From Pectobacterium actinidiae (GTDB lineage Bacteria; Pseudomonadota; Gammaproteobacteria; Enterobacterales; Enterobacteriaceae), in the NCBI RefSeq assembly GCF_000803315.1, contig NZ_JRMH01000001.1, positions 3,162,001 through 3,226,000 on the forward strand: a DNA stretch of 64,000 nt, written 5' to 3'. Numbering within the stretch: position 1 is the stretch's first letter; every line of letters starts with the position of its first letter. This document shows positions 41,851 through 62,398 of the stretch, in pieces. Both the position numbers and the translations under genes were made by a program. Below the pieces are notes generated by a model. It did not search any database and was not told the DNA's origin. It saw only the letters and a list, made by a program, of their open reading frames with translations.

Positions 41851-42100
41851 ATTTCGTGCGTGTTAACTACCGAGCAAATCTGTGATGTCATCACACGCCC
41901 GACAAGGCGCGCTCAATCGCCGCAGCGCCTTGACCACTGGCTTTTCGGCGCTAATTGCGTCGCTACGCGATACCTTCGGCGTGCGTGACCGCTATTCGGG
42001 CCGCCAGTGACGCGTTCCCGACGCGGCACTGCCTTTCGCGGCATCCATGCCGCTCACCCGGCAATCACGCCCACCTCAGCGCAATTTTTTACGCCAGAGA
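41851..42100 (+). mobile_element. MITE-like structured repeat, copy 1 (right end missing)
   Basis: It begins with ATTTCGTGCG, the conserved left end, and ends near TTTACGCCAGAG. It matches copies at 51375-51668 (inverted) and 62023-62299. Internal hairpins: CAAGGCGC/GCGCCTTG at 41903-41932, CAGTG-A-CGCGT with ACGCG-G-CACTG near 42005-42031, and GCGGCA/TGCCGC at 42038-42053. The right terminal repeat seen in the other copies is absent. No ORF with a ribosome site. It lies between the convergent ganL and ganK. Confidence 0.75.
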
Positions 42101-42147
42101 AACCCAAAACAGCGGAATATTGAGAGACAGAAGATTTTATCAGCAGC

Positions 42148-42178
42148 ATAAACAGCGCCCGCAAAGGGCGCTGTTTAT
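42148..42178 (-). terminator. Terminator of ganK
   Basis: Perfect 13-base stem ATAAACAGCGCCC/GGGCGCTGTTTAT with loop GCAAA, 49 bp past the ganK stop. The U-tract on the minus strand is weak. Confidence 0.75.
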
Positions 42179-42226
42179 GTTTAGAAGGGATTTTGGCTAT
42201 TGAGATTCAGCGATGCAGTCGCTTAA

Positions 42227-43309
42227 CTAGGCGCTGATACGCAGGCCATCGGCGTTGAACACTAGACAGTTATTCGGGGAGAAGAAGACCTCAATATGTT
42301 CATACGGTTTGAAAGCACTGTCGCCCGCAAGCAGCAGTTTGAAGTTATCAATCCCGCAGCATTGGCCAAACAGATAAGTACTGTTACCTAAACGCTCGAC
42401 GACCTCACAGCCGAATGACAGGCGAATTCCCTCACCTTCCGGCGAAACGTGTTCCGGCCGTAGCCCCAGAGTAACCGTGCTGCCAACGGTCAGTTCACCA
42501 GTGCGAATCGGCAACTCAAGCTGCAACTGCTCGGCCACATTCACCGTCAGGCTATCCGGCGTCCAGTCAACCACCTGCGCTGGTAGAAAATTCATTTTTG
42601 GCGAGCCGATAAAGCCCGCAACAAACTGGTTAACCGGATGATAATAAAGCTCCATCGGCGATCCCACCTGCTCGACTTTACCGTAATTCATGACCACAAT
42701 TTTATCGGCCAGCGTCATGGCTTCGACCTGATCGTGCGTCACGTAAATCATCGTCGTTTTCAATTCCTGATGCAGTTTGGCAATATGCAAACGCATATCC
42801 ACGCGCAGCTCTGCATCCAGGTTCGACAGCGGTTCATCAAACAGGAAAACTTTCGGGTTACGCACGATAGCGCGCCCTATCGCCACGCGCTGACGCTGCC
42901 CACCAGATAGCTCCTTCGGCTTGCGCTCCAGCAGGTGAGACAGTTGCAGCGTCTTCGCCACCATCTCGATTTGGTGCTTAATCTGGTCTTTCGGTACACC
43001 ATTCACACGCAGGCCATAACCCATATTCTCAGCAACGGTCATGTGCGGATACAGCGCATAAGACTGGAACACCATAGCCACGCCACGGTGAGCAGGGGCA
43101 ACATCATTCACGACGGCCTCATCAATCATGATTTCACCGCCCGTGACATCTTCCAGTCCGGCAATCATTCTCAGCAACGTCGACTTACCGCAGCCAGACG
43201 GCCCAACAAAAACGGCGAACTCTCCATCTGCAATCGTCAGATTCACATCGTGAAGCGTAATCGTTTTGCCAAAATGCTTACTCACTTTATCCAACTGGAT
43301 CGACGCCAT
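42227..43309 (-). CDS. ganK: GanK, MalK/MsmX-like ABC transporter ATPase
   Basis: 360 aa from the ATG at 43309 (GAGG upstream); the frame from 43360 is not conserved. ABC domain: Walker [17 protein letters not shown], signature [14 protein letters not shown], Walker [17 protein letters not shown] and switch [12 protein letters not shown]. The MalK-type C-terminal regulatory domain follows ([24 protein letters not shown]). It should power the GanFG permease. Encoded opposite to ganEFGAB across a shared operator region, as in Dickeya. Confidence 0.92.
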
Positions 43310-43468
43310 AACAGTAACCTCTTGATAATTTTGCTTTTCAGGATATAAGCGCTGAGTCACAACGGCCCAGTGGTCGTCTACTCAAAATGGCTCGGTAGCC
43401 CTTCCAGACGTATCCACATCCGGCCAGGTTTACCTGCACGCTGGTCATAATCGCAATATAACAGCATG

Positions 43469-43484
43469 GTGTAACCGTTTGCAC
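43469..43484. promoter_or_regulatory. GanR-type operator, ganK side
   Basis: GTGTAACCGTTTGCAC, matching GTGTAANCGNTTNCAC at every fixed position. 160 bp upstream of ganK. Confidence 0.82.
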
Positions 43485-43501
43485 AAACAGGGGGTTACTT
43501 T

Positions 43502-43517
43502 TGTGCATAAGATCACA
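43502..43517. promoter_or_regulatory. CRP site in the gan divergent promoter
   Basis: TGTGC-ATAAGA-TCACA inside TTTTGTGCATAAGATCACAG: nine of ten positions of the TGTGA-N6-TCACA core. It sits midway between the two GanR-type operators, suggesting joint cAMP-CRP activation of both directions. Confidence 0.72.
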
Positions 43518-43574
43518 GCCTTTACATGTTTCGCTGGCAGACGTGGCGCACTCTGCTTAATGTAATCGCCACTG

Positions 43575-43590
43575 GTGTAACCGTTACCCT
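43575..43590. promoter_or_regulatory. GanR-type operator, ganE side
   Basis: GTGTAACCGTTACCCT: left half perfect, right half degenerate. It is 106 bp from the operator at 43469 (about ten DNA turns), compatible with looping. Confidence 0.62.
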
Positions 43591-43801
43591 AGTTTGTGGA
43601 AAACGCATAATAAAGCGTCACACGCCACACAGCGACGATCACCAAACCACGTGTACTGTTAGATGCCTCATTCCCTGCGGTGTACTGCTGTGCGATGTAA
43701 CGTTACACCCGCATCACACAGGGACGGCAAAAACGGCGAAAGCGGAAAGTACGCGACGATTTCCTACCATGATGGGCCCACCAGGGCTTTGAGGACTAAT
43801 G

Positions 43802-45034
43802 ATGAAAATGAAAACACTGACCACCGTCATCATGATTTCACTGGGTATCACCGGCGTACTCAGCAAATCAGCGCTGGCAGCCGACAAAGAACTTCTGGTA
43901 TGGGAAGATATCAAGAAATCCGACGGCATCGCCGACGCGATCAAAGCCTTTGAAAAACAGAATAATGTCAAAATCAACGTGCTGGAAACGCCTTACGCGC
44001 AGCAGATTGAGAAACTCCGTCTGGATGGCCCGGCAGGCATCGGTCCGGATGTGATCGTGATGCCACACGATCAGGTCGGTACCGCCGTGGTTCAGGGATT
44101 GATCAGCGAACTAAAGCTGGATCAGACGTTCCTGTCGAGTTTCACCAAACCGGCACTGGAAGCACAAACCTATAACGGTAAGCTATACGGCGTGCCAAAA
44201 GCGGTTGAAACCACCGTGCTGGTGTACAACAAAGACCTAATGCCACAACCGCCGGAAAAATTCGACGACTTGTTCACGTTCTCCAAACAGCAACGTGCCG
44301 AAGGCCGCTATGGTCTGCTGGCGAAATTTGACGAAATTTATTACGCCTACGGCGTCATCGCTGGGATGGGTGGCTACATTTTCGGGCAGAACAGCAACGG
44401 TTCACCAAACGTAAAAGACATCGGTCTGGATAAACAAGCCACCATCGATGCCGTCAACTATATCAAGAAATTCTATGCCGATGGCCTGTTCCCGCCGGGT
44501 ATCGTCGGTGAAACCGGCGCTAACGCCATCGATTCCCTGTTCACCGAGAAAAAAGCCGCAGCCGTAATTACCGGTCCGTGGGCGTTCCAGCCGTACAAAA
44601 ACGCGGGCGTAAACTATGGCGTTGCCCCACTGCCGCTGCTGCCAAACGGCGAGCACCCGCGTTCGCTGCTGGGCGTCAAAGGCTACAGCATCTCCACCTA
44701 CTCCAAAAACAAAGAGCTGGCGCAGAAATTCATTGAGTTCATCAATCAGCCTGAGTACGCCAAAGTTCGCTTCCAGTTAACCGGTGAAATCCCACCAATC
44801 GCGGCGCTGGTTGACGATCCGCTAATTAAGGACGACGAAAAATCCCGTGCTGTCGCGATCCAGTCTGGCTATGCCGTTCCTATGCCGAGCGTACCGGAAA
44901 TGCAGGAAGTCTGGACGCCAGCAAACAGTGCGCTGCAACTGAGCGTGACAGGCAAGCAGGACACCAAAGCGGCGCTGGAATCTGCCGTGAAGGTTATCAA
45001 AATGCAGATCGAAGCTAACCACAGTAACCAGTAA
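43802..45034 (+). CDS. ganE: GanE, periplasmic galactooligosaccharide-binding protein
   Basis: 410 aa from the second of two adjacent ATGs (43802), which has GAGGA at six bases. Signal peptide MKMKTLTTVIMISLGITGVL ending ALA before ADKELLVW. Cluster with MalE-like binding proteins: LLVWEDIKKSDGIADAIKAF, GIGPDVIVMPHDQVG, AAAVITGPWAFQPYK. It delivers galactan oligosaccharides to GanFG. First gene of ganEFGAB, with a stem-loop following it that may favour its higher expression. Confidence 0.92.
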   Translation: MKMKTLTTVIMISLGITGVLSKSALAADKELLVWEDIKKSDGIADAIKAFEKQNNVKINVLETPYAQQIEKLRLDGPAGIGPDVIVMPHDQVGTAVVQGLISELKLDQTFLSSFTKPALEAQTYNGKLYGVPKAVETTVLVYNKDLMPQPPEKFDDLFTFSKQQRAEGRYGLLAKFDEIYYAYGVIAGMGGYIFGQNSNGSPNVKDIGLDKQATIDAVNYIKKFYADGLFPPGIVGETGANAIDSLFTEKKAAAVITGPWAFQPYKNAGVNYGVAPLPLLPNGEHPRSLLGVKGYSISTYSKNKELAQKFIEFINQPEYAKVRFQLTGEIPPIAALVDDPLIKDDEKSRAVAIQSGYAVPMPSVPEMQEVWTPANSALQLSVTGKQDTKAALESAVKVIKMQIEANHSNQ

Positions 45035-45064
45035 TCCCCCGCACCACCGTGGGTCAACGTGGGG

Positions 45065-45102
45065 CCCCCTGTTTATCCCTGAAAACGTTCGGGATGTGGG
45101 GG
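45065..45102 (+). repeat. Stem-loop between ganE and ganF
   Basis: CCCCC pairs with GGGGG and, inside it, TCCC with GGGA around TGAAAACGTTC. Binding-protein genes of sugar ABC operons often carry such a hairpin downstream, which protects the upstream message and lowers expression of the permease genes; the role here is inferred. Confidence 0.55.
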
Positions 45103-45133
45103 TACCCATGTTTTTAAGAAAATGGAGGTAGAT

Positions 45134-46438
45134 GTGACCGTCAACGCCAGCGGCCTTACGCCACAAGAGAGAGGATGTCGCCACGCCAGAACGGCTGTAT
45201 TGCTGGCGATCGTCCCCGGACTTGGACAGATTTATAATCGCCAGTTCGTCAAAGGCGCATTGTTCTTTATCATCATGGTCTGCTTCATCGGCATATTCCA
45301 TGATTTCCTGCGGAACGGCGCCTGGGGGCTCATCACGCTGGGCACTGAGCTGCCGCGCGATCACTCTATTTTTCTGCTGGCAAAAGGCATTATCAGCGTA
45401 ATCGTCGCCGCCTTTGGCGTCGGTGTTTACTATTTCAGCCTGCGCGATGCCTACGTGTGCGGTGCCAGACGCGATAAAGGTCTGCCGTTGAACAGCGTGA
45501 AGAAGCAATATCAAATGCTGCTGAGCGAAGGCTTTCCTTATCTGATGATCACGCCCGGCTTCATCCTGTTGGTCTTTGTCGTGGTTTTCCCGATTATTTT
45601 CGGTTTTTCCATTGCCTTTACCAATTACAACCTCTATCACACGCCACCTGCCAAGCTGGTCGATTGGGTAGGGATGACAAACTTTATCAATATCTTCCGG
45701 CTCGACCTCTGGCGTTCAACGTTCTTTGACGTGCTGCAATGGACGGTGATTTGGACGCTGATTGCGACCACACTCCAGTGCGCCGTGGGCATCCTGCTGG
45801 CGATTTTGGTGAACCAGAAAGGCCTGCGTTTCAAACCACTGATCCGCACTATCCTAATCCTGCCGTGGGCGGTGCCGGGCTTCGTCACTATTCTGGTCTT
45901 CGCGGGGATGTTTAACGAAACGTTTGGCGTGATTAATAACGGGATTCTGGCCGCATTGGGGATTGAACCCAAAGCGTGGATGACCGATCCATTTTGGACC
46001 AAAACCGCGCTGATTTTGATGCAAACCTGGTTAGGTTTCCCGTTTGTGTTCGCCATGACCACCGGCGTATTGCAGGCTATTCCTGATGATTTGTACGAAG
46101 CCGCAACCATTGACGGAGCGAGCAGTTGGTACAAGCTGACCACCATCACACTGCCGCTGGTGCTCTACTCCATCGCGCCGATCATCATCACGCAGTACAC
46201 GTTCAACTTTAATAATTTCAACATCATCTATCTGTTCAACAACGGCGGACCGGCGGTGATCGGCTCTAACGCGGGCGGGACGGATATTCTAGTGTCCTGG
46301 ATTTATAAGCTGACCATGTCTTCTTCCCAATATGCAATCGCAGCCAGCATCACCATTCTGCTGTCGATTTTTGTCGTGGGCGTCGCGCTGTGGCAGTTCC
46401 GCGCCACCAATTCCTTCAAACAAGACAACATGGCATAG
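45134..46438 (+). CDS. ganF: GanF, MalF-like permease of the galactooligosaccharide transporter
   Basis: 434 aa if started at the GTG at 45134, which has GGAGGT at four bases; the ATG at 45122 lies upstream of that ribosome site and has none of its own. About eight hydrophobic segments: extra N-terminal helices (LLAIVPGLGQIYNRQF, GALFFIIMVCFIGIF) precede the six-helix permease core. The ATPase-contact EAA loop is YEAATIDGASSWYKLTTITL. Shorter than MalF because the large periplasmic loop is missing. Forms the inner-membrane channel with GanG. Confidence 0.9.
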   Translation: MTVNASGLTPQERGCRHARTAVLLAIVPGLGQIYNRQFVKGALFFIIMVCFIGIFHDFLRNGAWGLITLGTELPRDHSIFLLAKGIISVIVAAFGVGVYYFSLRDAYVCGARRDKGLPLNSVKKQYQMLLSEGFPYLMITPGFILLVFVVVFPIIFGFSIAFTNYNLYHTPPAKLVDWVGMTNFINIFRLDLWRSTFFDVLQWTVIWTLIATTLQCAVGILLAILVNQKGLRFKPLIRTILILPWAVPGFVTILVFAGMFNETFGVINNGILAALGIEPKAWMTDPFWTKTALILMQTWLGFPFVFAMTTGVLQAIPDDLYEAATIDGASSWYKLTTITLPLVLYSIAPIIITQYTFNFNNFNIIYLFNNGGPAVIGSNAGGTDILVSWIYKLTMSSSQYAIAASITILLSIFVVGVALWQFRATNSFKQDNMA

Positions 46439-46450
46439 GAAAGCGCGCAG

Positions 46451-47299
46451 ATGAAAAAACACAGCGTTAAACGCCAGAATTTTATCAAACTCGGCCTGAC
46501 CTACCTGCTGCTGGCGATGGTGGCCGTCATCATTATTTATCCACTGATCTGGACGGTTGGCGCGTCGCTGAACCCCGGCAACAGCCTGCTCAATACGTCA
46601 ATCATCCCAGACAACTTCTCCTTCATTCACTATGAGGAGCTGTTTAACGGCCAGATTGACTACGCGGCGTGGTACTGGAATTCGATGAAAATCAGCTTCC
46701 TGACCATGATTCTGACGCTCGTCAGCGTCAGTTTCACCGCCTATTCCTTCTCTCGCTTCCGCTTTCGTGGCCGCCAAAACGGGCTGATGCTGTTTTTACT
46801 CTTACAGATGATCCCGCAGTTTTCCGCGTTGATCGCCATCTTCGTACTGGCGCAGATGCTGGGGCTGGTAAACAGCCATATTGCACTGGTGCTGGTTTAC
46901 GTCGGCGGCATGATCCCGATGAATACCTATCTGATGAAAGGCTATCTGGATGCCATCCCGAAAGATCTGGATGAGTCCGCGCGTATGGACGGCGCAGGCA
47001 ACTTCCGCATCTTTATCGAGATCATTATGCCGCTGTCTAAACCGATCATCGCGGTGATCGCCCTGTTCTCGTTTACCGGCCCGCTGGGTGACTTCATTCT
47101 CTCCAGCACCATCCTGCGCACACCGGATCAGTACACGCTGCCCATCGGGCTCTACAACCTGGTGTCGCAGAAGATGGGCGCCAGTTACACCACCTACGCC
47201 GCTGGAGCCGTGCTGATCGCGGTACCGGTCGCCATTCTTTATCTTTCATTGCAAAAGTACTTTGTCTCCGGCCTGACCTCAGGCGGAACCAAAGGGTAA
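46451..47299 (+). CDS. ganG: GanG, MalG-like permease of the galactooligosaccharide transporter
   Basis: 282 aa, six hydrophobic segments, MalG family. The EAA loop reads DESARMDGAGNFRIFIEIIM. It begins 12 bp after ganF and is followed 35 bp later by ganA. It pairs with GanF and is energised by GanK. Function assigned from family and locus; direct specificity for galactan oligomers is inferred from Dickeya. Confidence 0.92.
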   Translation: MKKHSVKRQNFIKLGLTYLLLAMVAVIIIYPLIWTVGASLNPGNSLLNTSIIPDNFSFIHYEELFNGQIDYAAWYWNSMKISFLTMILTLVSVSFTAYSFSRFRFRGRQNGLMLFLLLQMIPQFSALIAIFVLAQMLGLVNSHIALVLVYVGGMIPMNTYLMKGYLDAIPKDLDESARMDGAGNFRIFIEIIMPLSKPIIAVIALFSFTGPLGDFILSSTILRTPDQYTLPIGLYNLVSQKMGASYTTYAAGAVLIAVPVAILYLSLQKYFVSGLTSGGTKG

Positions 47300-47334
47300 T
47301 TACTCAACATCTGTACCAATTCCAGGAACGTAAA

Positions 47335-48549
47335 ATGAAAATGAAAAAACGCGTACTGATGGCCGCCATGCTCGCAACTGGCCTGTTGACCTTCTCCCTG
47401 CCGCAGACCCTGCATGCCGCAGAGAATGTGACGATCAATAAGTTGACGAACGTCCCTGCCGATTTCATCAAAGGCGCGGATATTTCCATGCTAAACGAGG
47501 TGGAAAAGCACGGCGGAAAATTTTATGACGAACATGGCAAACAGAAAGATGCCATGTTGATCCTGAAAGAGAACGGCATTAACTATATTCGTTTGCGCAT
47601 CTGGAACGACCCAAAAGATGCGGCAGGCAACGGTTACGGCGGCGGTAACAACGATCTGGCTACCACGCTGGCGCTGGCTAAACGCGCCAAAGCGAACGGT
47701 ATGAAAATACTGCTGGATTTCCACTACAGCGATTTCTGGACCGACCCAGCCCACCAAAACAAACCCAAAGCCTGGTCTGGCCTAAGCGCAGAACAGCTCA
47801 CAACTGCCGTACATGACTACACCAAAGCCACCATTAGCGAATTCCAGAAAGCGGGCGTCATGCCGGATATGGTGCAGATCGGTAACGAATTGAACGGCGG
47901 GATGCTGTGGCCGGAAGGAAAAAGTTGGGGTCAGGGTGGCGGTGAATTTGATCGCCTCGCGGCGATGTTGAAAGCCGGTATTCAGGGCGTGAAGGAAGTA
48001 CAGGGCGCGAATAACGTCAAAATCATGCTGCATCTGGCGGAAGGCACCAAAAACGACACCTTTATCTGGTGGTTCGATGAGATCGTCAAACGTAATGTCC
48101 CGTTTGATGTCATCGGTGCCTCGTTCTACACCTACTGGAACGGCCCCATCAGCGCGTTGCAGTACAACATGAACGACGTCACCAAACGCTACAATAAAGA
48201 CATCATCGTGGTTGAAGCCGCCTATGCTTACACGCTGGAAAACTGCGATAACGCGGAAAACAGCTTTCAGCAAAAAGAGTTGGATGCAGGCGGCTACCCC
48301 GCTTCCGTTCAGGGTCAGGCCAATTACCTGCACGATCTGATGCAAAGCGTCATCAACGTCCCCAATCAGCGTGGTAAAGGCGTCTTCTATTGGGAACCCA
48401 TCTGGCTGCCAACGCCCGGCGCAACCTGGGCCACGAAAGCGGGCATGAAATACAACAAAGACGAATGGAAAGAAGGCAACGCGCGGGAAAATCAGGCGCT
48501 GTTCGATTGCAAAGGCAACGTACTGCCTTCCATCAAAGCGTTTAAGTAA
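47335..48549 (+). CDS. ganA: GanA, arabinogalactan endo-beta-1,4-galactanase (GH53)
   Basis: 404 aa with a signal peptide (MKMKKRVLMAAMLATGLLTF, cleavage after LHA before AENV). The GH53 barrel begins FIKGADISMLNEVEKHGGKF and INYIRLRIWNDP. The acid/base Glu is in QIGNELNGGMLWPEG and the nucleophile in IIVVEAAYAYTLE; the end FYWEPIWLPTPGATW is typical. It cuts beta-1,4-galactan side chains of pectin; with a Sec signal it should be periplasmic, as described for Dickeya. RBS is AGGA. It fits the plant-pathogen lifestyle. Confidence 0.96.
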   Translation: MKMKKRVLMAAMLATGLLTFSLPQTLHAAENVTINKLTNVPADFIKGADISMLNEVEKHGGKFYDEHGKQKDAMLILKENGINYIRLRIWNDPKDAAGNGYGGGNNDLATTLALAKRAKANGMKILLDFHYSDFWTDPAHQNKPKAWSGLSAEQLTTAVHDYTKATISEFQKAGVMPDMVQIGNELNGGMLWPEGKSWGQGGGEFDRLAAMLKAGIQGVKEVQGANNVKIMLHLAEGTKNDTFIWWFDEIVKRNVPFDVIGASFYTYWNGPISALQYNMNDVTKRYNKDIIVVEAAYAYTLENCDNAENSFQQKELDAGGYPASVQGQANYLHDLMQSVINVPNQRGKGVFYWEPIWLPTPGATWATKAGMKYNKDEWKEGNARENQALFDCKGNVLPSIKAFK

Positions 48550-48551
48550 GT

Positions 48552-48766
48552 CGTAAACCGTATTCAGAGCGTGACAACCCGTTTAACTGAACAAGAGCGG
48601 CGATAATGGGATAGAAGAGTAAAGCGTTTGCGCCAGGGATGGCGCAACCCGAGCGTACAGGGATGTATTCACAGCGTCTTTACGATCTACCCATCATCGC
48701 CGCATAAGCACATTGCCAGCTATCTCGAACACGCAAACCGTATTCAACGCGTTGACAACCCGTTTA
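48552..48766. repeat. 34-bp direct repeats flanking an insert between ganA and ganB
   Basis: 48552-48585 and 48732-48766 are near-identical (AAACCGTATTCA, then GACAACCCGTTTA in both). The first starts two bases after the ganA stop; the second ends just before the ganB ribosome site. The right copy contains the perfect palindrome TCAACGCGTTGA, which is eroded in the left one. Between them lies 146 bp with the large palindrome at 48597-48703. Confidence 0.8.
48597..48703. repeat. Large imperfect palindromic element between ganA and ganB
   Basis: The outer arms are GCGGCGATAATGGG and CCCATCATCGCCGC, extended inward by TAG-N-GTAAAG against CTTTAC-N-TCTA. An inner hairpin TTGCGCC-AGGGAT-GGCGCAA is perfect for seven pairs. 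Similar GCGCC-x-GGATGGCGC sequences are, from memory, frequent between genes of soft-rot bacteria. It would be transcribed within ganEFGAB. Confidence 0.65.
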
Positions 48767-48776
48767 GGAGAAAACG

Positions 48777-50837: not shown

Positions 50838-50870
50838 GGCTCATGCTTGTCGGTTAAGCATTACGCTACC

Positions 50871-50920: not shown

Positions 50921-50988
50921 CTAACAGTAATGTTACGTAAACGGCATTATCATACGCACGCTGATAAACAAACGAAGAGGTGACTACG

Positions 50989-51330
50989 ATGGGCAAGATT
51001 CACAATTTTCGGAAATTGTTCGCATCAATGTTGGGTAAGCAAATTACCGAGATTGAAATCGCTTCACCGCTAGACAAAGAAAACTTGCAGCAGTTGGTAA
51101 CCGCCTTTGGCGGCAAAGAAAATATCGTCAGTCTGGATGCCTGCATCACCCGCCTGCGGGTCGAGGTTCATAGCCTGCGACTGGTTAACAGCGACAGTTT
51201 GCAAAAGCTGGGCGCTATCGGCGTGATTATTGTCGGTCATCAGGTACAGGCCATTTTCGGCACCCAATCGGATAACCTGCGCCGCGAACTAGCCGCCTGG
51301 TTTGAGGATGATGGCGCAGAAGCGCGCTAA
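50989..51330 (+). CDS. PTS EIIB domain protein, glucose family (orphan)
   Basis: 113 aa from the ATG at 50989 (AGAGG at eight bases); a GTG at 50980 is less likely. The EIIB fold of the glucose/N-acetylglucosamine family is complete over about residues 30-105. The phosphorylated Cys is in VSLDACITRLRVEV, followed by LGAIGVIIVGHQVQAIFG. Normally this domain is fused to an EIIC membrane part; here it stands alone with an N-terminal arm MGKIHNFRKLFASMLGKQ that resembles the linker after an EIIC. It may complement a permease encoded elsewhere or sense sugar flux. Weak case for membership of the gan operon. Confidence 0.87.
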   Translation: MGKIHNFRKLFASMLGKQITEIEIASPLDKENLQQLVTAFGGKENIVSLDACITRLRVEVHSLRLVNSDSLQKLGAIGVIIVGHQVQAIFGTQSDNLRRELAAWFEDDGAEAR

Positions 51331-51374: not shown

Positions 51375-51668
51375 AGTTTCGTGCGCGATAAATGTTGTGA
51401 ATGTACGAATACCTTGCCGTTATCTGGCGTAAAAAATTATGCAGCGGTGAGCTTGACCGCCGAGTGAGCGACAGGACGTCGCGAAAACCAGTGCCGCGTC
51501 GGGAACGCGTCACTGGTGGCTCGATTAGCGGTCATGAACACCGATGGGACCGCGTAGCGGCATAATTCCCGCCAAAAGCCGGGGTTCATAGGGGGCTGGC
51601 GTAGCCCCCTATGTCGGGCGCGTGCTACGAGGTAGCATGAAAATGGCGGTATGATGGCGCACGAAACT
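51375..51668 (-). mobile_element. MITE-like structured repeat, copy 2
   Basis: Bounded by terminal inverted repeats AGTTTCGTGCGC (51375-51386) and GCGCACGAAACT (51657-51668). The interior, read on the minus strand, aligns with copies 1 and 3. Hairpins: AGGGGGCT/AGCCCCCT at 51590-51610, CAGTG-CCGCGT with its complement near 51490-51520, and GCGAC/GTCGC at 51468-51482. The stems pair but differ in sequence from the other copies. No transposase. It lies between convergent PTS EIIB and the aldo/keto reductase. Confidence 0.8.
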
Positions 51669-51746: not shown

Positions 51747-52712
51747 TTAATAACGACTCGCACGATCCAGCAGCTCAATATCTTCTGCTGGCAGCACCAG
51801 TCGCGTCGCACTCGCCAGTTCGGCAACCTGCTCCAGCGATGTCGCACTGGCGATCGGTGCCGTGATGCTCGGGCGGGCGATCAGCCATGCCAGCGCGACC
51901 TGCGATGGTGTCGTCTGATGCGCATTCGCCACGCTATCCAACGCTTCCAAAATGGTGCGACCGCGCTCATTCAGGTATTTTTCTACGACGCCCTGCCCGC
52001 GTGCACTTTTCGACGCATCCTTAGGCTGACGATACTTACCTGACAGAAACCCGCTAGCCAGAGAATAGTAGCTAATCACGCCAATCCCCTGCTCACGCAC
52101 CAACGGCTCTAGCGCGGCTTCATAACCCTGCCGATCGTACAAATTGTATTCCGGTTGCAGCGTTTCATAACGCGCCAGATGGTTGGCTTGACTGACTTTC
52201 AGCGCCTCAGCCAGACGCGCCGCGCTGTAGTTGGATGCCCCAATCGCGCGTACTTTCCCTTCTTTAATCAACGCATCAAACGTAGCCAGCGTTTCTTCCA
52301 GTGGCGTATCTTTGTCGTCCGTATGTGCCTGATAGAGATCGATATAGTCCGTCTGCAAGCGTTGTAATGAGGCCTCGACGGCCTGACGAATATAGCGAGG
52401 AGACAGCCCTTTCTTGCCCTCCCCCAAATCCATACCCACCTTGGTCGCGATAATCACCTTGTCGCGTTGGCCACTTTTTTTCAGCCAGTTACCGATGATC
52501 GTTTCAGACTCACCGCCCTGATTACCGGGTGCCCAGCGCGAGTAAACATCGGCGGTATCAATGAAATTTAGCCCATGCGCCAATAACGCATCCAGCAGGC
52601 TGAACGATGTCGACTCATCGACCGTCCAGCCAAAGACGTTACCGCCGAACGAGAAAGGCGGAACCACGATCCCTGAACGTCCAAGCTCGCGTGTAGTATT
52701 TGATACTGACAT
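51747..52712 (-). CDS. Aldo/keto reductase
   Basis: 321 aa from the ATG at 52712 with AAGGAGAG upstream; a GTG two codons earlier is open but lacks spacing. AKR barrel with the catalytic tetrad visible: Asp in NFIDTADVYSRW, Tyr in the same helix, Lys in VIIATKVGMDLG and His in LYQAHTDDKDTP. The NADP-binding end includes PIASATSLEQVAEL. Similar to YajO/Tas-type reductases. Substrate not predictable. Monocistronic. Confidence 0.9.
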   Translation of the reverse strand: MSVSNTTRELGRSGIVVPPFSFGGNVFGWTVDESTSFSLLDALLAHGLNFIDTADVYSRWAPGNQGGESETIIGNWLKKSGQRDKVIIATKVGMDLGEGKKGLSPRYIRQAVEASLQRLQTDYIDLYQAHTDDKDTPLEETLATFDALIKEGKVRAIGASNYSAARLAEALKVSQANHLARYETLQPEYNLYDRQGYEAALEPLVREQGIGVISYYSLASGFLSGKYRQPKDASKSARGQGVVEKYLNERGRTILEALDSVANAHQTTPSQVALAWLIARPSITAPIASATSLEQVAELASATRLVLPAEDIELLDRASRY

Positions 52713-52970
52713 AATCACTCTCCTTTTGAATCATGCAGAAAACATCATGAAAAATACCCGCCTACCTGCAACGTGGGTATACCAATGTGACTTTCTGTTG
52801 AGGGATAAGAATAATGAATGAACAGAAAAGTGCGAATAACGAGACGTAGCATTTAGTTTAGATAAAATCCCAAGGTATAATTGTTTTTTTGCGTCCCTCC
52901 TCTCATTTTTAATGCACGCGTTACATAAAATGACGTGGAAAATTAGGCCTGCCTCATATTTGGAGCACAC

Positions 52971-54204: not shown

Positions 54205-54225
54205 CCGGCAGCCTCGCGCTGCCGG
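54205..54225 (+). terminator. Terminator of nupC
   Basis: Stem CCGGCAGC/GCTGCCGG with loop CTCGC, followed by GTTCTTTCC, 37 bp after the stop codon. Confidence 0.8.
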
Positions 54226-54351
54226 GTTCTTTCCTACAAATCCTGACATATCTTCTATAATTTCTTCATTTTTGTCCGGCTTCCCTTGTTTAAACTAGTA
54301 AAATGCGGCCATTGGCTAATGTTGATCACTTAAGCCTTATTTTAGGAGAAA

Positions 54352-54390
54352 CACGGGGATGAGGTTCCCGCAGGGACACCTCGTCCCGTG
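54352..54390. repeat. Palindromic hairpin repeat, copy 2
   Basis: CACGGGGATGAGGTTCCC, loop GCA, then GGGA-CACCTCGTC-CCGTG: an 18-base stem with one bulge. Related to 50871-50920. It lies 150 bp upstream of mdtA. Confidence 0.65.
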
Positions 54391-54461
54391 GTCGCTCCGT
54401 GTATCTCGGTTCTTAAACGATCGGCACGCGGTCATTGGTCCAATAACACGCTGAGTATGAT

Positions 54462-54496
54462 AGCCAACGCACATGCCGCATGAAGTATGACGGGTA
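54462..54496. repeat. ERIC remnant (one end only)
   Basis: AGCCAACGCACATGCCGCAT and then GAAGTATGACGGGTA match the right end of the ERIC at 21678-21802. The core and left half are missing. Immediately upstream of mdtA. Confidence 0.8.
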
Positions 54497-54538
54497 GATC
54501 GTACTTCACACGCAATCTGGAGAGAGTAATCCATCACT

Positions 54539-55774
54539 ATGAATGCCAAACGTATCCGAGGCCTGCTGGTACTTGCCGCCATTATCGCTATTGCCGTGCT
54601 GATCTGGCGCCATTTTACCCAGACACCGCCTGCCTCCCCTGGCACAAGTGAACAGCACGCGGCCCGTACGTCACATGCGGGAAATAGTACCAGTGGCGGC
54701 GGACGCCGCGCCGCGATGCGTACGCTGGCACCCGTACAGGCGGCGCTGACACAATCCGCTTCCGTGCCTTATTACCTCTCCGGTTTAGGCACCGTGATGG
54801 CGGCCAACACCGTGACGCTGCGCAGTCGGGTGAACGGTCAGTTGATGGCACTCCACTTTCAGGAAGGGCAGCAGGTTAAAGCTGGCGACCTGCTGGCAGA
54901 AATCGATCCCCGTCCTTTTCAGGTTGAGCTGACGCAGGCGCAGGGACAGTTGGCAAAAGATCGGGCAGTGCTGGCTAATGCCCAACAGGATTTAGCACGC
55001 TATCAGCAACTGGTGAAAACCAACCTGATCTCCCGTCAGGAGCTGGATGCGCAGACCGCCGCCGTTCGTCAGGCAGAAGGCACGCTAAAAGCCGATGAAG
55101 GTGCCGTCGCCAGCGCACAGCTCCAGTTGGATTACAGCAAAATCACCGCGCCTATCAGTGGTCGGATCGGCTTAAAGCAGGTCGATATAGGGAATTACAT
55201 CACCAGCGGCGATACTAATGGGATTGTCGTGATTACGCAGACTTACCCTATTGATGTCGTCTTTACCGTACCGGAAGCGGACATCTCCACGATTCTGAGT
55301 GCGCAGAAATCCGATCAGCCGCCTGTGGTAGAAGCCTGGGATCGCGCCAATCAAAAGAAACTCTCGCAGGGCATCCTGCTGAGCATGGACAACCAGATCG
55401 ACACCACCACGGGCACGATCAAGCTCAAGGCGCGTTTTGACAATCTGGACGATGCCCTGTTCCCGAACCAGTTCGTGAATATCCGCATGAAGGTCGACAC
55501 GCTGAAAAATGCCGTCGTCGCACCATCCGCCGCCGTACAAATGGGCAATGAAGGCCGCTTCGTCTGGATTCTGAATGATAAAAATGAAGTGAGTAAGCGT
55601 CAGGTTACCACCAGTATTCAGTACGGCCAGTTGGTTGTGGTGACCGCCGGGCTGGACGCCAATGTTCAGGTTGTGACTGACGGCATCGACCGCCTGACCG
55701 AAGGCGCGAAAGTGGAAGTCGTGCCCTCAGCGTTGACGGAGAAAACGCCCGCCATCGCTGGGGAGAAATCCTGA
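54539..55774 (+). CDS. mdtA: MdtA, membrane-fusion subunit of the MdtABC RND efflux pump
   Basis: 411 aa (E. coli 415). N-terminal membrane anchor at about residues 6-24 ([18 protein letters not shown]), then a low-complexity linker and the fusion-protein core: lipoyl half-motifs [20 protein letters not shown] and [17 protein letters not shown] around a helical hairpin ([20 protein letters not shown]). It links MdtBC to TolC. The stop overlaps the mdtB start by one base. First gene of the operon, normally controlled by BaeSR. Confidence 0.96.
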
Positions 55775-58700
55775 TGCAGGATACCGTTCCAGCCAACGGC
55801 GGTGGGCCGTCTCGCCTGTTTATTCTGCGTCCAGTCGCAACGACGCTGCTGATGATCGCCATTTTGTTAGCCGGTATTATCGGCTATCGGGCGCTACCCG
55901 TTTCTGCGCTGCCCGAAGTCGATTATCCAACGATTCAGGTCATTACCCTCTATCCCGGTGCCAGCCCCGATGTGGTGACCTCGGCGATTACCGCGCCGCT
56001 GGAGCGGCAGTTCGGCCAGATGTCCGGGCTAAAACAGATGTCGACACAGAGCGCTGGCGGCGCATCCGTCATCACGCTCCAGTTCCAGCTTGAGCTATCG
56101 ATGGACGTCGCCGAACAGGATGTGCAGGCCGCTATCAATGCGGCCAGCAACCTGCTGCCGAGCGATCTACCCTATCCGCCGACCTACAGCAAAGTGAATC
56201 CGGCGGATCCGCCGATTATGACGCTTGCCGTCACCTCCAGCGCCATGTCGATGACACAGGTTCAGGATATGGTGGACAACCGCATCGCGCAGAAAATTTC
56301 ACAGGTGGCGGGCGTCGGTCTGGTGTCATTAGCCGGTGGCCAACGTCCGGCAGTGCGGGTAAGGCTGAACGCCCCTGCGCTAGCGGCGTACGGCTTGACC
56401 AGCGAAACGATCCGCACCGCCATTACCGCCGCCAATGTGAATTCCGCCAAGGGGAGCCTGGATGGCCCGACACGTTCAGTCACGCTCTCCGCCAACGATC
56501 AAATGAAATCCGTTGATGATTACCGCAAGCTGATTGTCGCGTGGAAGAATGGCGCGCCAGTGCGGCTTCAGGATGTCGCGACTATCGAACAGGCCGCCGA
56601 AAACATTCATCTCGGTGCCTGGGCGAATCGACAGCAGGCGATCATTATCAACATTCAGCGCCAGCCGGGCGCCAACGTCATCACGACCACGGACAGCATT
56701 AGCAAGATGCTGCCCGCGTTAAAAGCCAGTCTGCCGAACTCAGTCAACGTCACCACGTTGACTGACCGCACCACCAGCATTCGCGCCTCGGTGAAAGACG
56801 TCCAGTTTGAACTGCTGCTGGCTATCGCGCTGGTCGTCATGGTGATTTACCTGTTCTTGCGTAACGCTGTCGCCACGCTGATCCCCAGCATTGCCGTGCC
56901 ACTGTCGCTGATTGGCACCTTTGCCGCGATGTATTTTCTCGGCTTCTCCATCAACAACCTGACGCTCATGGCGCTCACCATCGCCACTGGTTTCGTGGTG
57001 GATGATGCCATTGTGGTGATTGAAAACATCGCCCGCTATATCGAAAAAGGGGAAAAGCCGCTTAACGCGGCGCTAAAAGGTGCGGGAGAAATCGGCTTCA
57101 CCATTATTTCTCTGACCTTTTCGCTCATCGCCGTGCTGATCCCGTTGCTGTTTATGGGTGATATCGTCGGACGCCTGTTCCGCGAATTCGCCGTCACGCT
57201 GGCGGTATCCATCCTGATTTCCGCTGTCGTTTCGCTCACGCTGACACCCATGATGTGCGCCCGAATGCTGAGCCATCAGTCACTGCGTAAACAGAACCGT
57301 TTTACCCGCGCCAGCGAACGGTTCTTCACTCGCCTGATTGATGCCTACGGCGTCTGGCTGCGCAAGGTGCTGAATCATCCGTGGCTGACGCTTAGCGTCG
57401 CACTCGGTACGCTGCTGCTGACGATTCTGCTCTATATCGTGATCCCAAAAGGCTTCTTCCCGATACAGGATAACGGCATTATTCAGGGCACCGTGCAAGC
57501 GCCGCAGACGGTCTCGTTCAGCAGCATGGCCGACCGCCAACAGCGCGTCGCGTCCATCATCATGAAAGATCCGGCGGTCGAGAGCGTATCCTCGTTTATC
57601 GGCGTTGATGGCACGAATGCCGCGCTGAACAGCGGCCGACTGCAAATCAACCTAAAGCCGCTCAGTGAACGTAGCGAACGCATTCCGGAGATCATCAGTC
57701 GCTTGCAACAGCAAACAGCACAAATTCCCGGCATCCAGCTCTATCTGCAACCGGTACAGGATCTCACCATCGACACCCAAATTAGCCGCACGCAATACCA
57801 GTTTACGTTGCAGGCGATGTCGTTGGACGAGCTGAGCGAGTGGGTGCCGACGCTGATGACCGAACTAAAAACGCTGCCGCAGCTAGAGGATGTCAGCAGC
57901 GACTGGCAAGATGGCGCGGCGGTCGCCTACGTCAACGTGAACCGCGACAGCGCCAGCCGTTTGGGTATTACGATGTCACAGGTCGACAGCGCGCTGTACA
58001 ACGCCTTTGGTCAGCGACTGGTTTCCACCATCTATACGCAGGCCAGCCAATACCGCGTGGTGCTGGAACACGATACGACCAACAATACCGGTCTGGACGC
58101 ATTGAACGACGTGCGCCTTATCAGCAGCGACGGCGGCACCATTCCGCTCAGCAGCATCGCCACCATTGAAGAGCGTCAGGGGCCGCTGGCGATCAACCAT
58201 ATCGACCAGTTCCCCTCGACGACGATCTCTTTCAACGTCGCCAGCGGCTATGCGTTAGGCGAAGCGGTTGATGCCATCACGCAGGCCGAGCAGCAGATGA
58301 ACCTGCCTGCGGATATCACCACTCGCTTTCAGGGCAGTACGCTGGCGTTCCAGTCAGCACTGAGCAGCACGGTATGGCTTATCGTGGCGGCAATTGTCGC
58401 GATGTACATTGTGCTCGGCGTGCTGTACGAAAGCTTTATTCATCCGATCACCATCTTGTCTACGCTGCCAACGGCGGGCGTCGGTGCACTGCTGGCGCTC
58501 ATGATGGCGGGGAACGAGCTGGATGTGATCGCCATTATCGGGATCATATTGCTCATTGGGATCGTGAAGAAAAATGCCATCATGATGATCGACTTCGCAC
58601 TGGCGGCGGAGCGAGAACAGGGGATGAAACCGTATGATGCGATTTATCAGGCCTGTCTGCTGCGTTTCCGACCGATTTTGATGACCACCATGGCGGCGCT

Positions 58701-58896
58701 GCTGAGTGCGCTACCGCTGATGCTGAGCACTGGCGTCGGCGCAGAGCTGCGCCAGCCGCTGGGAATCTGTATGGTCGGAGGCCTGATCATGAGCCAAATC
58801 CTGACGCTGTTTACGACACCGGTGATCTACCTGCTGTTTGACCGTCTGGCGACGCGTTTCCGCCGTTTAGCGCGTCAGGAGGAAGAGGCCGAGTGA
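55774..58896 (+). CDS. mdtB: MdtB, RND multidrug efflux transporter
   Basis: 1040 aa, identical in length to E. coli MdtB. Twelve-helix RND protomer: first helix [20 protein letters not shown], two large periplasmic domains, and the proton-relay helix with [19 protein letters not shown] (paired Asp). In the MdtB2C heterotrimer MdtB is thought to drive proton coupling. Substrates include bile salts and novobiocin in E. coli. Overlaps mdtA by one base and mdtC by four. Confidence 0.97.
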
Positions 58897-61800
58897 AGTT
58901 CTTCGCCCTGTTTATCCACCGCCCCGTCGCCACCCTGCTGCTGACGCTGGCTATCGCGCTCTGTGGCGTATTAGGCTTCCGCCTGTTGCCGGTGTCGCCG
59001 CTGCCGCAGGTGGATTTCCCGGTGATCTCGGTCAGCGCCTCGTTGCCCGGTGCCTCGCCGGAAACCATGGCTTCTGCCGTCGCCACGCCCCTGGAGCGCG
59101 CGCTCGGCAGGATCGCGGGCGTTAGCGAGATGACCTCCACCAGCTCGCTCGGCAGCACCCGCGTCATTCTGGTATTTAATCTCGACAGGGATATCAACGG
59201 TGCAGCGCGTGATGTACAGGCGGCCATTAACGCGGCACAAAATCTGTTGCCATCCGGCATGTCCAGCCGCCCGACCTACCGCAAAGTCAATCCGTCCGAC
59301 GCGCCCGTCATGATTCTGACGCTGACCTCGGAAACCTACAGTCAGGGGCAACTGTACGACTTTGCTTCTACCCAACTGTCGCAGAAAATTTCACAGATGG
59401 AAGGCGTCGGCGATGTCTCCATCGGCGGAAGTTCACTGCCTGCCGTGCGCGTCGCGCTGAATCCGGTAGCCTTGTTTAATCAGGGAATTTCCCTCGATGA
59501 GGTGCGGCAGGCCATCGCACAGGCGAACGTACGTCAGCCGCTGGGGAATGTGGAAAACAGCCAGAAAAGCTGGCAGATACAAACCAACGATGCGCTAAAA
59601 ACCGCCGATGCCTACGCGCCGCTGATTATCCACTACAACAACGGCGCTGCCGTCCGCCTGAGCGACGTCGCCACGGTAGAAGATTCAGTCCAGAACGCCC
59701 GTAACGCGGGGATGGCGAACGCGAAGCCTGCGATTTTGGTGATGATTCGCCGTGCGCCGGATGCCAACATTATCACCACGGTAGACAATATCCGCGCCGC
59801 GATGCCGGAACTACGTGCCAGCCTGCCTGCCGAAATACAGCTGGATGTCGCGCAGGATCGCTCCCCCACCATTCGCGCCTCGTTGGCGGAAGTCGAGCAA
59901 TCGCTGGTTATCGCCGTCGCGCTGGTTATTCTGGTCGTCTTCCTGTTCCTACGTTCAGCCCGCGCGACCGCCATTCCGGCACTGGCCGTCCCGGTTTCGC
60001 TGATCGGCACCTTCGCCGCCATGTACCTGTGCGGCTTTAGTCTGAACAACCTGTCGCTGATGGCGCTTACCATTGCCACCGGTTTCGTGGTGGATGACGC
60101 CATCGTGGTGCTGGAGAATATTTCCCGCCACATCGAGGCCGGCATGAAGCCGTTACAGGCCTCGCTTCAGGGCGTGCGCGAAGTGGGGTTTACCGTCTTA
60201 TCGATGAGTTTGTCGCTGGTGGCGGTGTTCATTCCTTTGCTGCTGATGGATGGCTTGCCGGGGCGACTATTCCGCGAATTCGCCGTCACGCTGTCGGTAG
60301 CGATCATGATTTCGCTGCTGATCTCGCTGACGCTGACGCCGATGCTGTGCGCCCGCCTGCTACGTGCCGTTCCCAAGCGTAGCCAGCCGCGCACCCGTGG
60401 TTTTAACCGCGTATTGCTCGCCATGCAGCAAGGCTACGGGCGTTCATTGAAGTGGGTGCTCAACCATGCACGTTGGGTGTTGCTGCTCCTGCTGGGCACC
60501 ATTGCACTCAACGTCTGGCTGTACATCAGCATTCCCAAGACTTTTTTCCCAGAGCAGGACACAGGCCGACTGATGGGCTTTATTCAGGCCGATCAGAGTA
60601 TTTCTTTTCAGGCTATGACGGTGAAACTCCAAAACTTCATGACCATCGTCAGTAGCGATCCGGCGGTGGATAACGTGAACGGGTTTACCGGCGGTTCGCG
60701 CACCAACAGCGGGTCGATGTTTATTTCGCTTAAGCCGCTGTCCGAACGTGATGTATCGGCACAGCAAGTGATCAGTCGCCTGCGCGTCAAGCTGGCAAAA
60801 GAACCCGGTGCCAACCTGTTTTTAATGCCGGTGCAGGATATTCGTATCGGCGGGCGGGAATCGAGCGCCGGATACCAATACACGCTGCTGTCTGACGATC
60901 TAAGCGAGCTACGCGCCTGGGAACCCAAGATTCGTGCTGCTTTCAGCAAACTCCCTGAGCTGGCCGACGTGAATTCCGATCAGCAGGATAAAGGCGCGGA
61001 AATGGCGCTGACCTACGATCGTGATGCGATGGCGCAGCTCGGCATCAGCGTTTCTGCCGCTAACGCACTACTCAATAACGCCTTCGGACAGCGTCAGATT
61101 TCAACCATTTACCAGCCACTAAACCAATATAAGGTGGTGATGGAAGTGGACGACGCCTACACGCAGGACGTCAGTTCACTCGACAAAATGTTCGTGATCA
61201 ATAATGAAGGTAAGCCCATCCCGCTCTCTTATTTCGCCAGTTGGAAGCCGATCAACGCGCCGCTGTCGGTGAACCATCAGGGGCTGTCTGCCGCCTCGAC
61301 GATCTCTTTTAATCTGCCGGAGGGCACCGATCTTTCCAACGCCACGGCGGCGATAGAAAGAACCATGACATCGCTGGGCGTGCCGTCCGCAGTACGCGGT
61401 CAGTTCTCCGGTACGGCACAGGCGTTCCAGCAGTCGCAGTCTTCGCAACTGTTGCTGATTCTGGCGGCGATTATCACCGTGTATATCGTGCTGGGCGTGT
61501 TGTATGAAAGCTATGTGCACCCGCTGACGATTCTGTCTACCCTGCCCTCGGCGGGCGTGGGTGCGCTGCTGGCGCTGGAGTGGTTCGGCGCACCGTTTAG
61601 TCTGGTGGCACTCATTGGCATCATGCTGCTGATTGGGATCGTGAAGAAGAACGCGATCATGATGGTGGATTTTGCGCTGGTGGCGCAGCGCAGCGGCGGG
61701 TTGAGCGCACAGGATGCGATTTTTCAGGCCTGCCTGCTGCGTTTCCGCCCGATTATGATGACCACGCTAGCGGCACTGTTTGGCGCACTGCCGCTGGTAC

Positions 61801-61973
61801 TGACCAGCGGCGACGGCGCGGAACTGCGCCAACCGCTCGGCATCACGATCGTCGGCGGACTGGTGATGAGCCAAATCCTCACGCTGTACACCACACCGGT
61901 GGTGTATCTGTTTTTCGACAAGCTAAGGGGGATTCGGCGTAAAGCCCCGGAGAAGGATTTGTCATTGTCGTGA
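58893..61973 (+). CDS. mdtC: MdtC, RND multidrug efflux transporter
   Basis: 1026 aa (E. coli 1025). Start is a GTG inside the mdtB stop region (GTGA overlap), giving [23 protein letters not shown] features parallel Mdt[21 protein letters not shown] and the C-terminal [19 protein letters not shown] type helix ([16 protein letters not shown]). In the heterotrimer MdtC is thought to handle substrate binding. In E. coli mdtD follows directly; here 425 bp intervene, filled mostly by a MITE-like repeat. Confidence 0.97.
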
Positions 61974-62398
61974 CTGAACATGAACAACGATAAAGATCTA
62001 ATAACATGCTATTTCAGGGGGGGAGGTTTCGTGCGCTCAAGCTTCACCGTTTTTCTAATAGCGCCCCGAACGCGCCCGACCAAGGGCGGCTCAATTGCCG
62101 TCGCCCTTGGAACCCTGGCTATTGGCGGGAAATTATGCCGCTTTGCGGTGCCTTCGGGAAAAGCATCCTCTTTACGGACCGCCGCTGACGCGTTCCCTAC
62201 GCGGCATCGGCTTGCGCGGCATCCATGCCGCTTATCCGAGAGTCTGCATTTCCCTCAGCATAATTTACGCCAGGGAAAATACTCAGCGCACGAAACCTCT
62301 CCGAGATAATAATATTCGTGCTTTGAGAGCACCATGCGAAATGTGAGGACACCACCGACTATGCCCAATGTATTCAACAATCAAGAAGGTCATGAAAG
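61974..62398. other. Expanded gap between mdtC and mdtD
   Basis: 425 bp, of which 277 bp are the repeat copy 3. The remainder downstream (62300-62398) is AT-rich and leads to mdtD; it could contain a new promoter for mdtD-baeSR. No terminator with a U-tract was seen after mdtC. Confidence 0.6.
62023..62299 (+). mobile_element. MITE-like structured repeat, copy 3 (intact ends)
   Basis: 277 bp with perfect 15-bp terminal inverted repeats GAGGTTTCGTGCGCT (62023-62037) and AGCGCACGAAACCTC (62285-62299). Interior hairpins: CAAGGGCG/CGCCCTTG at 62081-62109 and GCGGCATCCATGCCGC at about 62216-62231. The central hairpin near 62186-62212 is eroded. No target-site duplication was clear. No transposase. 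Inserted between mdtC and mdtD. Confidence 0.82.

Follow-up and report, generated by a model that had tools for sequence, protein, structure and literature searches.

An intergenic element recurs within a 64,000-nucleotide stretch of the Pectobacterium actinidiae genome (the window), with hairpins whose sequences differ between copies. Is it a mobile DNA element, or does it encode a structured RNA? The original prediction described a three-copy, MITE-like element, and its copies are indeed present at 41851–42100, 51375–51668 and 62023–62299. As it stated, all of them follow gene ends. Copies 1 and 2 are located between convergent genes and copy 3 between two genes of the same direction, which we named mdtC-like and mdtD-like from the gene order as in E. 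coli. Copy 3 is thus located inside an apparent operon. The copies, their loop GGA triplets and the flanking genes are as follows.

40327–41712, + strand: LamB-family porin, ends before copy 1
41851–42100, predicted RNA strand −: copy 1; core 41893–42099, P1 arms 41903–41910 and 41925–41932
42016–42018, − strand: P5 loop GGA of copy 1 (TCC on the + strand)
42044–42046, − strand: P6 loop GGA of copy 1 (TCC on the + strand)
42227–43360, − strand: ABC ATPase with MalK OB domain, right of copy 1 and running toward it
50980–51330, + strand: PTS EIIB-domain protein, ends before copy 2
51375–51668, predicted RNA strand +: copy 2; core 51422–51623
51474–51476, + strand: P6 loop GGA of copy 2
51502–51504, + strand: P5 loop GGA of copy 2
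51747–52718, − strand: aldo/keto reductase, right of copy 2 and running toward it
58893–61973, + strand: mdtC-like RND transporter (Pfam ACR_tran), left of copy 3
62023–62299, predicted RNA strand −: copy 3; core 62070–62275, between the mdtC-like and mdtD-like genes
62194–62196, − strand: P5 loop GGA of copy 3 (TCC on the + strand)
62222–62224, − strand: P6 loop GGA of copy 3 (TCC on the + strand)
62399–63799, + strand: mdtD-like MFS transporter, right of copy 3

Two copies carry the terminal inverted repeats ascribed to them, a perfect 15-bp pair in copy 3 (62023–62037 and 62285–62299) and 12-bp motifs in copy 2 (51375–51386 and 51657–51668). Copy 1 has the left end motif and lacks the right-hand one. 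Judged from open reading frames alone, no transposase frame was seen, in agreement with the original prediction. Two frames of at least 80 aa overlap copy 3 (109 and 83 aa) and one 136-aa frame overlaps copy 2. No frame of at least 110 aa overlaps copy 1.

Fold and covariation of the element

The element has a branched fold of about 205 nt. In the structure modeled here, the 5' domain would consist of the outer stems P2 and P4 around two neighboring hairpins, P6 and P5, and then the small hairpin P3. The 3' domain would be formed by P0, enclosing the long hairpin P1. All stems named in the original prediction are present in the copies. The R1 covariance model matches the cores of copies 1, 2 and 3 with 211.2 bits (C1:3203893-3204099), 216.5 bits (C1:3213422-3213623) and 192.1 bits (C1:3224070-3224275). 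The element is not limited to three copies as had been assumed; the genome carries about 40. Of 1703 candidates, 150 were scored with the model; 40 matched, 35 strongly.

Pairing was proposed to be kept through sequence change, with a larger alignment as the check, and covariation in such alignments is strong. Among 87 distinct copies, 94.5% of cells are paired, compared to 81.1% in shuffles, and 665 cells hold double changes (195 ± 12 shuffled). A set of 29 copies gives 182 double-change cells (52 ± 6 shuffled), and covariation is also found in 28 distinct rows from one site across 25 species. In all three sets, four of five measures give values that none of 500 shuffles reaches, and the structure scores far lower when slid out of register. 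The number of further pair types is not above shuffles in any of the sets. One P1 pair takes four types among the 87 distinct copies (AU 42, GC 21, CG 19 and UA 4), and the long-range P4 stem holds compensated pairs. Owing to exchange between copies, the double changes are not independent. The end motif GTTTCGTGCG was also considered as a stem arm pairing with the start of the core. An exchange of arms among copies did not support this: native arms scored 5.32 and swapped ones 5.30, and 9632 of 20000 permutations were as good as the native arrangement.

Although the evidence on strand is mixed, the fold probably belongs to the strand complementary to the one in the original prediction. In favor of this strand are 30 A-C cells in 14 pairs versus 11 G-T cells in 9, counted over 46 of the 53 pairs. 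Seven pairs are outside the filter of this count, and G-T cells are numerous in five (46, 25, 29, 22 and 12), which would favor the original strand if these are real pairs. RNAalifold gave −175.1 kcal/mol for the predicted strand and −164.6 kcal/mol for the other. Folding z-scores were dropped as proof of the predicted strand, since they point the other way (−4.22 for the original strand versus −3.57), with the predicted strand lower in 13 of 48 copies. Neighbor orientation was dropped as well, because copies with co-directional neighbors show no strand bias (6 versus 5).

Genomic sites and mobility

The element was found by blastn in all 24 other Pectobacterium genomes searched. Its exact core pattern is present in Pectobacterium and Brenneria records only. 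The fold is recognizable in other genera, and inverted pairs of the element are found in two other genera of the same family. A distant blastn search with copy 3 alone gave no match in phage and plasmid collections. As judged by titles and abstract starts, none of the papers listed for Pectobacterium repeats and MITEs is on the element, and those listed for its sequence words are on other subjects.

The label MITE-like is weakly supported. The inverted ends of copies 2 and 3 speak for it, the distribution of ends and sites against it. Of the 25 exact GTTTCGTGCGC end motifs in the genome, 20 adjoin a core, 3 form a second end and 2 lie elsewhere. Just 3 of the 40 copies, including copies 2 and 3 of the window, have the motif on both sides, and a looser motif is found on the right at 4 of 30 loci. 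A reversed-pattern control of GTTTCGTGCGC occurs 5 times. One of the two stray sites is inside a reading frame and the other is about 250 bp past a gene that we take to be integrase-like; following the exact motif only, we found no R1 match near either.

The sites are shared across species. Profile hits in the syntenic regions of ten additional species are confined to these three sites (site 1 in 9, site 2 in 8 and site 3 in 9 of the 10 species); at site 3, G012 has a 266-bp remnant. These ten regions, compared with that of the window, contain no new site indicative of recent mobility. Past insertion between mdtC and mdtD is supported, because the gap is empty outside the genus. It measures 3–97 bp in 8 genomes of other genera (8 of 9 loci parsed, G028 being the exception), and R1 finds nothing in the nine loci, G028 included. 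In E. coli K-12, mdtC and mdtD abut. Among 25 Pectobacterium genomes, none has an empty mdtC–mdtD site with base-level boundaries.

Copies at one site flip orientation between species, and inversion is seen at all three window sites. At site 2, everything between the two end motifs seems, by eye, to be inverted. At the mdtC–mdtD site, five species have a + copy followed by a − copy and one has a fused pair. Simple inversion is therefore not the only account of this site; loss of alternate arms plus conversion is a possible one. By visual inspection, the copies sharing a site look like mosaics of subfamilies, and one species has a + half joined to a − half at the P5 palindrome. The in-place flips argue against a strand-fixed role for a given neighbor.

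Flanking genes are convergent at 18 and divergent at 1 of the 30 copies used out of 40 in the genome. No promoter-like site is found around the three window copies (0 in each region). A terminator-like site is located within copy 2 (51462–51442), and none inside copies 1 and 3. On the original strand, a run of six T is found near the core end in copies 1 and 2.

GGA loops and the relation to TwoAYGGAY

On the predicted strand, the element contains two adjacent hairpins, each with a GGA loop. The triplet is present in 48 of 48 non-redundant copies in the P6 loop and equally in 48 of 48 in the P5 loop, and the neighboring loop letters vary. These 48 copies, also used for the strand counts, were chosen from 90 aligned matches so that identity stays below 93%. 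GGA in a hairpin tip is the mark to which the bacterial regulator CsrA/RsmA binds. P6 forms an ANGGAN hexaloop closed by C-G in 37/48 copies and reads CAGGACG in 11/48. P5 reads CGGGA in 28/48 and begins ANGGA in 14/48. AYGGAY is found in 33/48 copies in P6 and in 0/48 in P5. Both stems are long and GC-rich, and the two triplets are about 25 alignment columns apart, a spacing at which one RsmA dimer could bind both.

Passages of one paper describe ANGGAN hexaloops and CAGGA(U/A/C)G as known RsmE and CsrB sites, the latter motif being that of the CsrB repeats, and report that CsrA bridges sites 10–63 nt apart and that most selected CsrA ligands have four or fewer contiguous pairs (PMC7652899). 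The element agrees with a CsrA/RsmA-type site in its loop GGA, in the preference for ANGGAN and in a spacing within 10–63 nt; P5 and the long stems fit less well.

Covariance-model matches indicate that the GGA-hairpin half of the element is related to the Rfam family TwoAYGGAY (RF01731, clan CL00106), a predicted CsrA-binding RNA that was proposed as such in the part of PMC4333381 cited here. The relation is recognizable in both directions. RF01731, with an Rfam gathering score of 43 bits, matches 2 of 20 of the element's own loci at 36.5 and 33.6 bits, both below this score, and copy 3 at 31.0 bits. No match at E ≤ 0.001 was found in the genome itself, with 11 of 110 candidates scored. Three R1-found loci of one other genus (L091, L100 and L107; G130) reach 45.6–52.8 bits, above the cut-off; in g40, the other genus that carries the element, RF01731 is not among the matches listed for six loci. 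Conversely, R1 finds 7 of 20 RF01731 loci at 31.0–42.5 bits, its matches being antisense to those of Rfam. The original prediction had held that an existing Rfam entry of the same kind would speak against it. This applies in part, as RF01731 is related and the element's own copies are below its cut-off.

Both families have an outer stem around two adjacent GGA hairpins, and TwoAYGGAY is also multi-copy in several other gammaproteobacterial genomes. Unlike TwoAYGGAY, the element scores at most 36.5 bits in what was scanned, has no AYGGAY in its second loop and is present at about 40 copies per genome. The Rfam match at locus L012 (1471–1595) ends at P3, with the P2 3' arm and the P0/P1 domain located beyond it. 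Similar to CsrA-sequestering sRNAs of the CsrB/RsmB type, the element has hairpin loops with GGA, CAUGGAUG, CAUGGACG and CAGGACG. However, those sRNAs carry many sites in one gene, whereas the element is spread over about 40 units of two sites each, with no promoter-like site at the window copies.

Alternative explanations and proposed role

MITEs, ERIC, RU and REPINs are short, non-coding, intergenic, multi-copy and palindromic. Compared by description only, the element shares these properties, but it has a complex branched fold with conserved loop letters; it also mostly lacks a second inverted end and occupies sites common to several species. An element of the MITE or REPIN kind, whose hairpins lack a host function and are needed, as DNA, for a transposase from another locus to mobilize it, would account for the many intergenic copies without a clear coding frame, the inverted ends of copies 2 and 3, the insertion between mdtC and mdtD that is absent from 8 genomes of other genera and E. 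coli K-12, and the inverted pairs found in two further genera of this family. We consider it unlikely. Both exact ends are present in just 3 of 40 copies, the two stray motifs have no such element around them and are within the number expected by chance, the hits in ten syntenic regions are confined to the same three sites, and copy 3 is unmatched in phage and plasmid collections. Furthermore, DNA pairing alone does not need invariant loop triplets. Also by description, the element resembles the betaproteobacterial repeat element BRE (bprJ sRNAs) in being a dispersed intergenic repeat found through structured-RNA prediction; it differs from BRE as presented in the part of the source cited, at about 90 bp, also in tandem arrays and in Betaproteobacteria (PMC3110155).

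The triplets also bear on a role as a bidirectional terminator, insulator or mRNA 3'-end stabilizer between convergent genes, for which GGA loops would be incidental. Such a function would survive the inversions seen at all three sites, and the stable hairpins, the predominance of convergent neighbors (18/30, with 1/30 divergent), the T runs in copies 1 and 2 and the terminator-like site in copy 2 are consistent with it. Yet any insert that avoids promoters is also expected between convergent genes, copies 1 and 3 contain no terminator-like site, copy 3 is within an apparent operon, and a 200-nt two-domain fold with invariant loop triplets far exceeds the need. This role appears rather improbable. 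Pairing kept without selection, through gene conversion between copies and palindrome-correcting template switches, is the least credible of these explanations. The mosaics of subfamilies and the halves fused at the P5 palindrome are suggestive of such events. Conversion moves existing helices, however, and does not explain four pair types at one P1 pair, compensated long-range P4 pairs or GGA invariant in both loops, and the fold is recognizable in other genera.

On balance, we favor a reading in which the copies belong to a dispersed, TwoAYGGAY-like family of structured RNAs and are candidate RsmA-binding sites. The element would be a new multi-copy branch of TwoAYGGAY-like RNAs that probably binds RsmA. 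One RsmA (CsrA) dimer could hold the GGA of both hairpins. As most copies are between convergent genes, read-through from either side would transcribe them, and they may act as dispersed RsmA-binding sites in transcript 3' ends or as sRNAs cut from these. Together, the copies could titrate RsmA or tether it to many transcripts. A more far-reaching version, which we put forward as speculation and regard as doubtful, is a distributed RsmA sponge in Pectobacterium and Brenneria. About 40 recombining and flipping RNA cassettes at gene ends, with two RsmA sites each, would have spread as a repeat and would jointly set the free RsmA level in the cell. The same two-domain repeat, with the 3' P1 hairpin that is absent from the Rfam model, would recur in other gammaproteobacterial genomes.

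In soft-rot bacteria, RsmA is described, for P. atrosepticum, as central to the regulation of virulence-factor production, in passages of a paper that do not name such an element (PMC4710047). If the repeat supplies dozens of extra RsmA sites, repeat dynamics would be linked to a global regulator. TwoAYGGAY, a family without a shown function, would gain an abundant and easily tested relative, for which natural variants, inverted copies and paired copies are available. The larger alignment improves the family model by the P2 stem, the second domain and the P5-loop extension. Even without a role in CsrA binding, a structured RNA behaving as a 40-copy repeat is unusual.

Copies and their genomic sites

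The three copies described in the original prediction are present in the window:

41851-42100, copy 1, at site 1
51375-51668, copy 2, at site 2
62023-62299, copy 3, at site 3, the gap between mdtC and mdtD

A covariance model of the element, R1, was built from alignment A1, which consists of 29 cores from the same genome. R1 gave 40 matches in this genome in a covariance search that scored 150 of 1703 candidates, and 35 reach at least 160 bits. Blastn with copy 3, limited to 12 scored candidates per genome, hit each of the 24 other genomes searched in the genus and none of 34 others. An exact-match scan of one genome per species (84,980 species) for a 23-letter core pattern with one two-fold position returned 65 stretches, every one titled Pectobacterium or Brenneria, and R1 confirmed 10 of 10 Brenneria loci at 71-227 bits. 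Among 146 further genomes from the order, R1 found weaker relatives in seven, in two of these through partial matches only. Inverted element pairs about 40-235 bp apart, with the predicted RNA 5' ends face to face, are seen at L091, L099, L100, L106, L109 and L111 (three genomes, two other genera).

The element was also predicted to be MITE-like, a description that mostly does not hold. When syntenic 80-kb regions of ten species were compared by profile, hits were confined to sites 1-3. Site 1 is occupied in nine of ten species, site 2 in eight, and site 3 in nine, with a remnant in the tenth. Relative to this genome, the orientation is reversed at site 1 in species G004, G017 and G021, at site 2 in G013 and G004, and at site 3 in G004, G010 and G017. 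Across 25 species, the mdtC-mdtD gap contains only plus copies in 13, only minus copies in four, both in six (one fused) and remnants in two. Outside the genus the gap measures 3-97 bp in eight of nine loci, the remaining one not being parsed, and by R1 none of the nine carries the element. The two genes abut in E. coli K-12. Most simply, the element entered the mdtC-mdtD site before the genus diversified and, instead of moving, was later inverted, paired, deleted and converted there.

In species G022, an insert with an IS110-family transposase gene (Pfam; L174:15096-16181) lies within hairpin P6 of the copy at site 1. At site 2 in G001 and G002, the flanking anchors are the same but enclose a different stretch, of about 1.9 kb, instead of the copy. 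An AT-rich hairpin of the GTCTCTTAGTCAC...GACTAAGAGAC kind lies immediately outside the end motif, the terminal inverted repeat, in the left flank of many copies in this genome. Crude ORF calling, applied only around copies of the element, covered 30 of the 40 copies, and their neighbors are convergent (18), co-directional (11) or divergent (1). Consensus scans around the three window copies turned up no promoter-like sites; one terminator-like sequence lies within copy 2, on the strand read in the original prediction (the reader's strand).

Fold, covariation and GGA loops

On the opposite strand, the predicted RNA strand, helices P2 and P4 enclose the P6 and P5 hairpins, which are followed by the small hairpin P3; in the 3' domain, P0 encloses the long hairpin P1. 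Over 53 pairs, 94.2% of cells in A1 are paired, compared to 83.3% after shuffling, and 182 are double changes, compared to 52 +/- 6; 0 of 500 shuffles were as high on either measure. The A1 alignment, made with MAFFT, used no structural information, yet the structure itself was drawn from it. A3, with 90 matches from the genus (87 distinct), was fitted to the model and leans towards its structure; it has 94.5% paired cells versus 81.1% shuffled, and 665 double changes versus 195 +/- 12. When partners are shifted by 1-3 columns, 24-73 double changes remain. A4 is drawn from the mdtC-mdtD locus in 25 species, where copies exchange sequence; its 28 distinct rows include both arms of paired copies, and it gave 93 double changes versus 30 +/- 7. 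Further pair types did not rise above shuffles, 466 (A1), 410 (A3) and 86 (A4) of 500 being as high. The covariation in A1, A3 and A4 indicates that pairing is kept through sequence change, more strongly than originally proposed.

The P6 and P5 loops both carry GGA in all 48 non-redundant copies counted, which do not include distant copies inspected by eye. On the opposite strand, the P6 loop, taken together with the pair that closes it, reads CAUGGAUG (16), CAUGGACG (15), CAGGACG (11) or one of five rarer forms (6). The P5 loop reads UCGGGAA in 23 and UAGGGAA in 10, and the remainder have other forms. A 77-nt multi-hairpin module (94-100% identity) lies within the P5 loop in four of the 40 copies in this genome, including L030:1396-1472. 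It has partial matches at four places elsewhere, and G019, G008 and G023 also show it, by eye, at their mdtC-mdtD sites.

Relation to TwoAYGGAY and the RNA strand

At the gathering level, an Rfam scan of the window matched nothing on the element and one family elsewhere:

48621-48726, minus strand, match to Ysr224 (RF02770; Rfam, 86 bits)

A second Ysr224 match (100.6 bits, L060:1286-1392) lies near a further copy of the repeat; Ysr224 may itself be multi-copy in this genome.

At looser thresholds, the opposite strand of the element matches TwoAYGGAY (RF01731), a predicted CsrA-binding RNA, with 31.0 bits for copy 3 and signals in 2 of 20 loci of this genome (33.6 and 36.5 bits). Three loci of genome G130 found by R1 (L091, L100, L107) exceed the cut-off of 43 bits, at 45.6-52.8 bits. 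For six loci of another genus (g40), RF01731 is absent among matches at E <= 1. In the reverse test, 20 RF01731 loci in other families were searched with R1, which matched seven. A survey of the class found RF01731 in 13 of 229 genomes, 11 above the cut-off and six with at least five matches; it was found neither in this genome (at E <= 0.001, with 11 of 110 candidates scored) nor in any of 14 control genomes. A hairpin of at least 12 pairs occurs within 170 nt downstream of 5 of 15 RF01731 loci (four genomes), whereas none lies upstream of those 15 or in any of 225 distant segments, so a P1-like 3' hairpin recurs in part of the TwoAYGGAY family. Long hairpins follow TwoAYGGAY matches at L220, L221, L224, L229 and L237 in other gammaproteobacteria. 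Several are of the ACTTTCTT...AAGAAAGT kind, which we take to be common intergenic repeats.

The opposite strand is more likely to be the RNA strand, mainly because the TwoAYGGAY match is on it. Over 48 non-redundant rows and 46 of the 53 pairs, 30 cells in 14 pairs would be G-U if the opposite strand is the RNA, compared to 11 in nine pairs for the reader's strand, although these cells are not independent of each other. Five of the seven pairs outside this count are rich in G-T cells (46, 25, 29, 22 and 12), and these pairs, if real, would favor the reader's strand. RNAalifold scores the two strands at -175.1 (opposite) and -164.6 (reader's), their covariation contributions being almost equal. 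Single-sequence folding z-scores (-3.57 for the opposite strand, -4.22 for the reader's) point the other way.

Rfam types RF01731 as Cis-reg. The original list describes TwoAYGGAY as 'probably' an RNA and probably not cis-regulatory (PMC2864571), and CsrA binding is proposed for it in another paper (PMC4333381). The element is best explained as a multi-copy branch of TwoAYGGAY-like RNA that carries an additional domain and loops likely to bind the CsrA-type regulator RsmA, a function that we infer.
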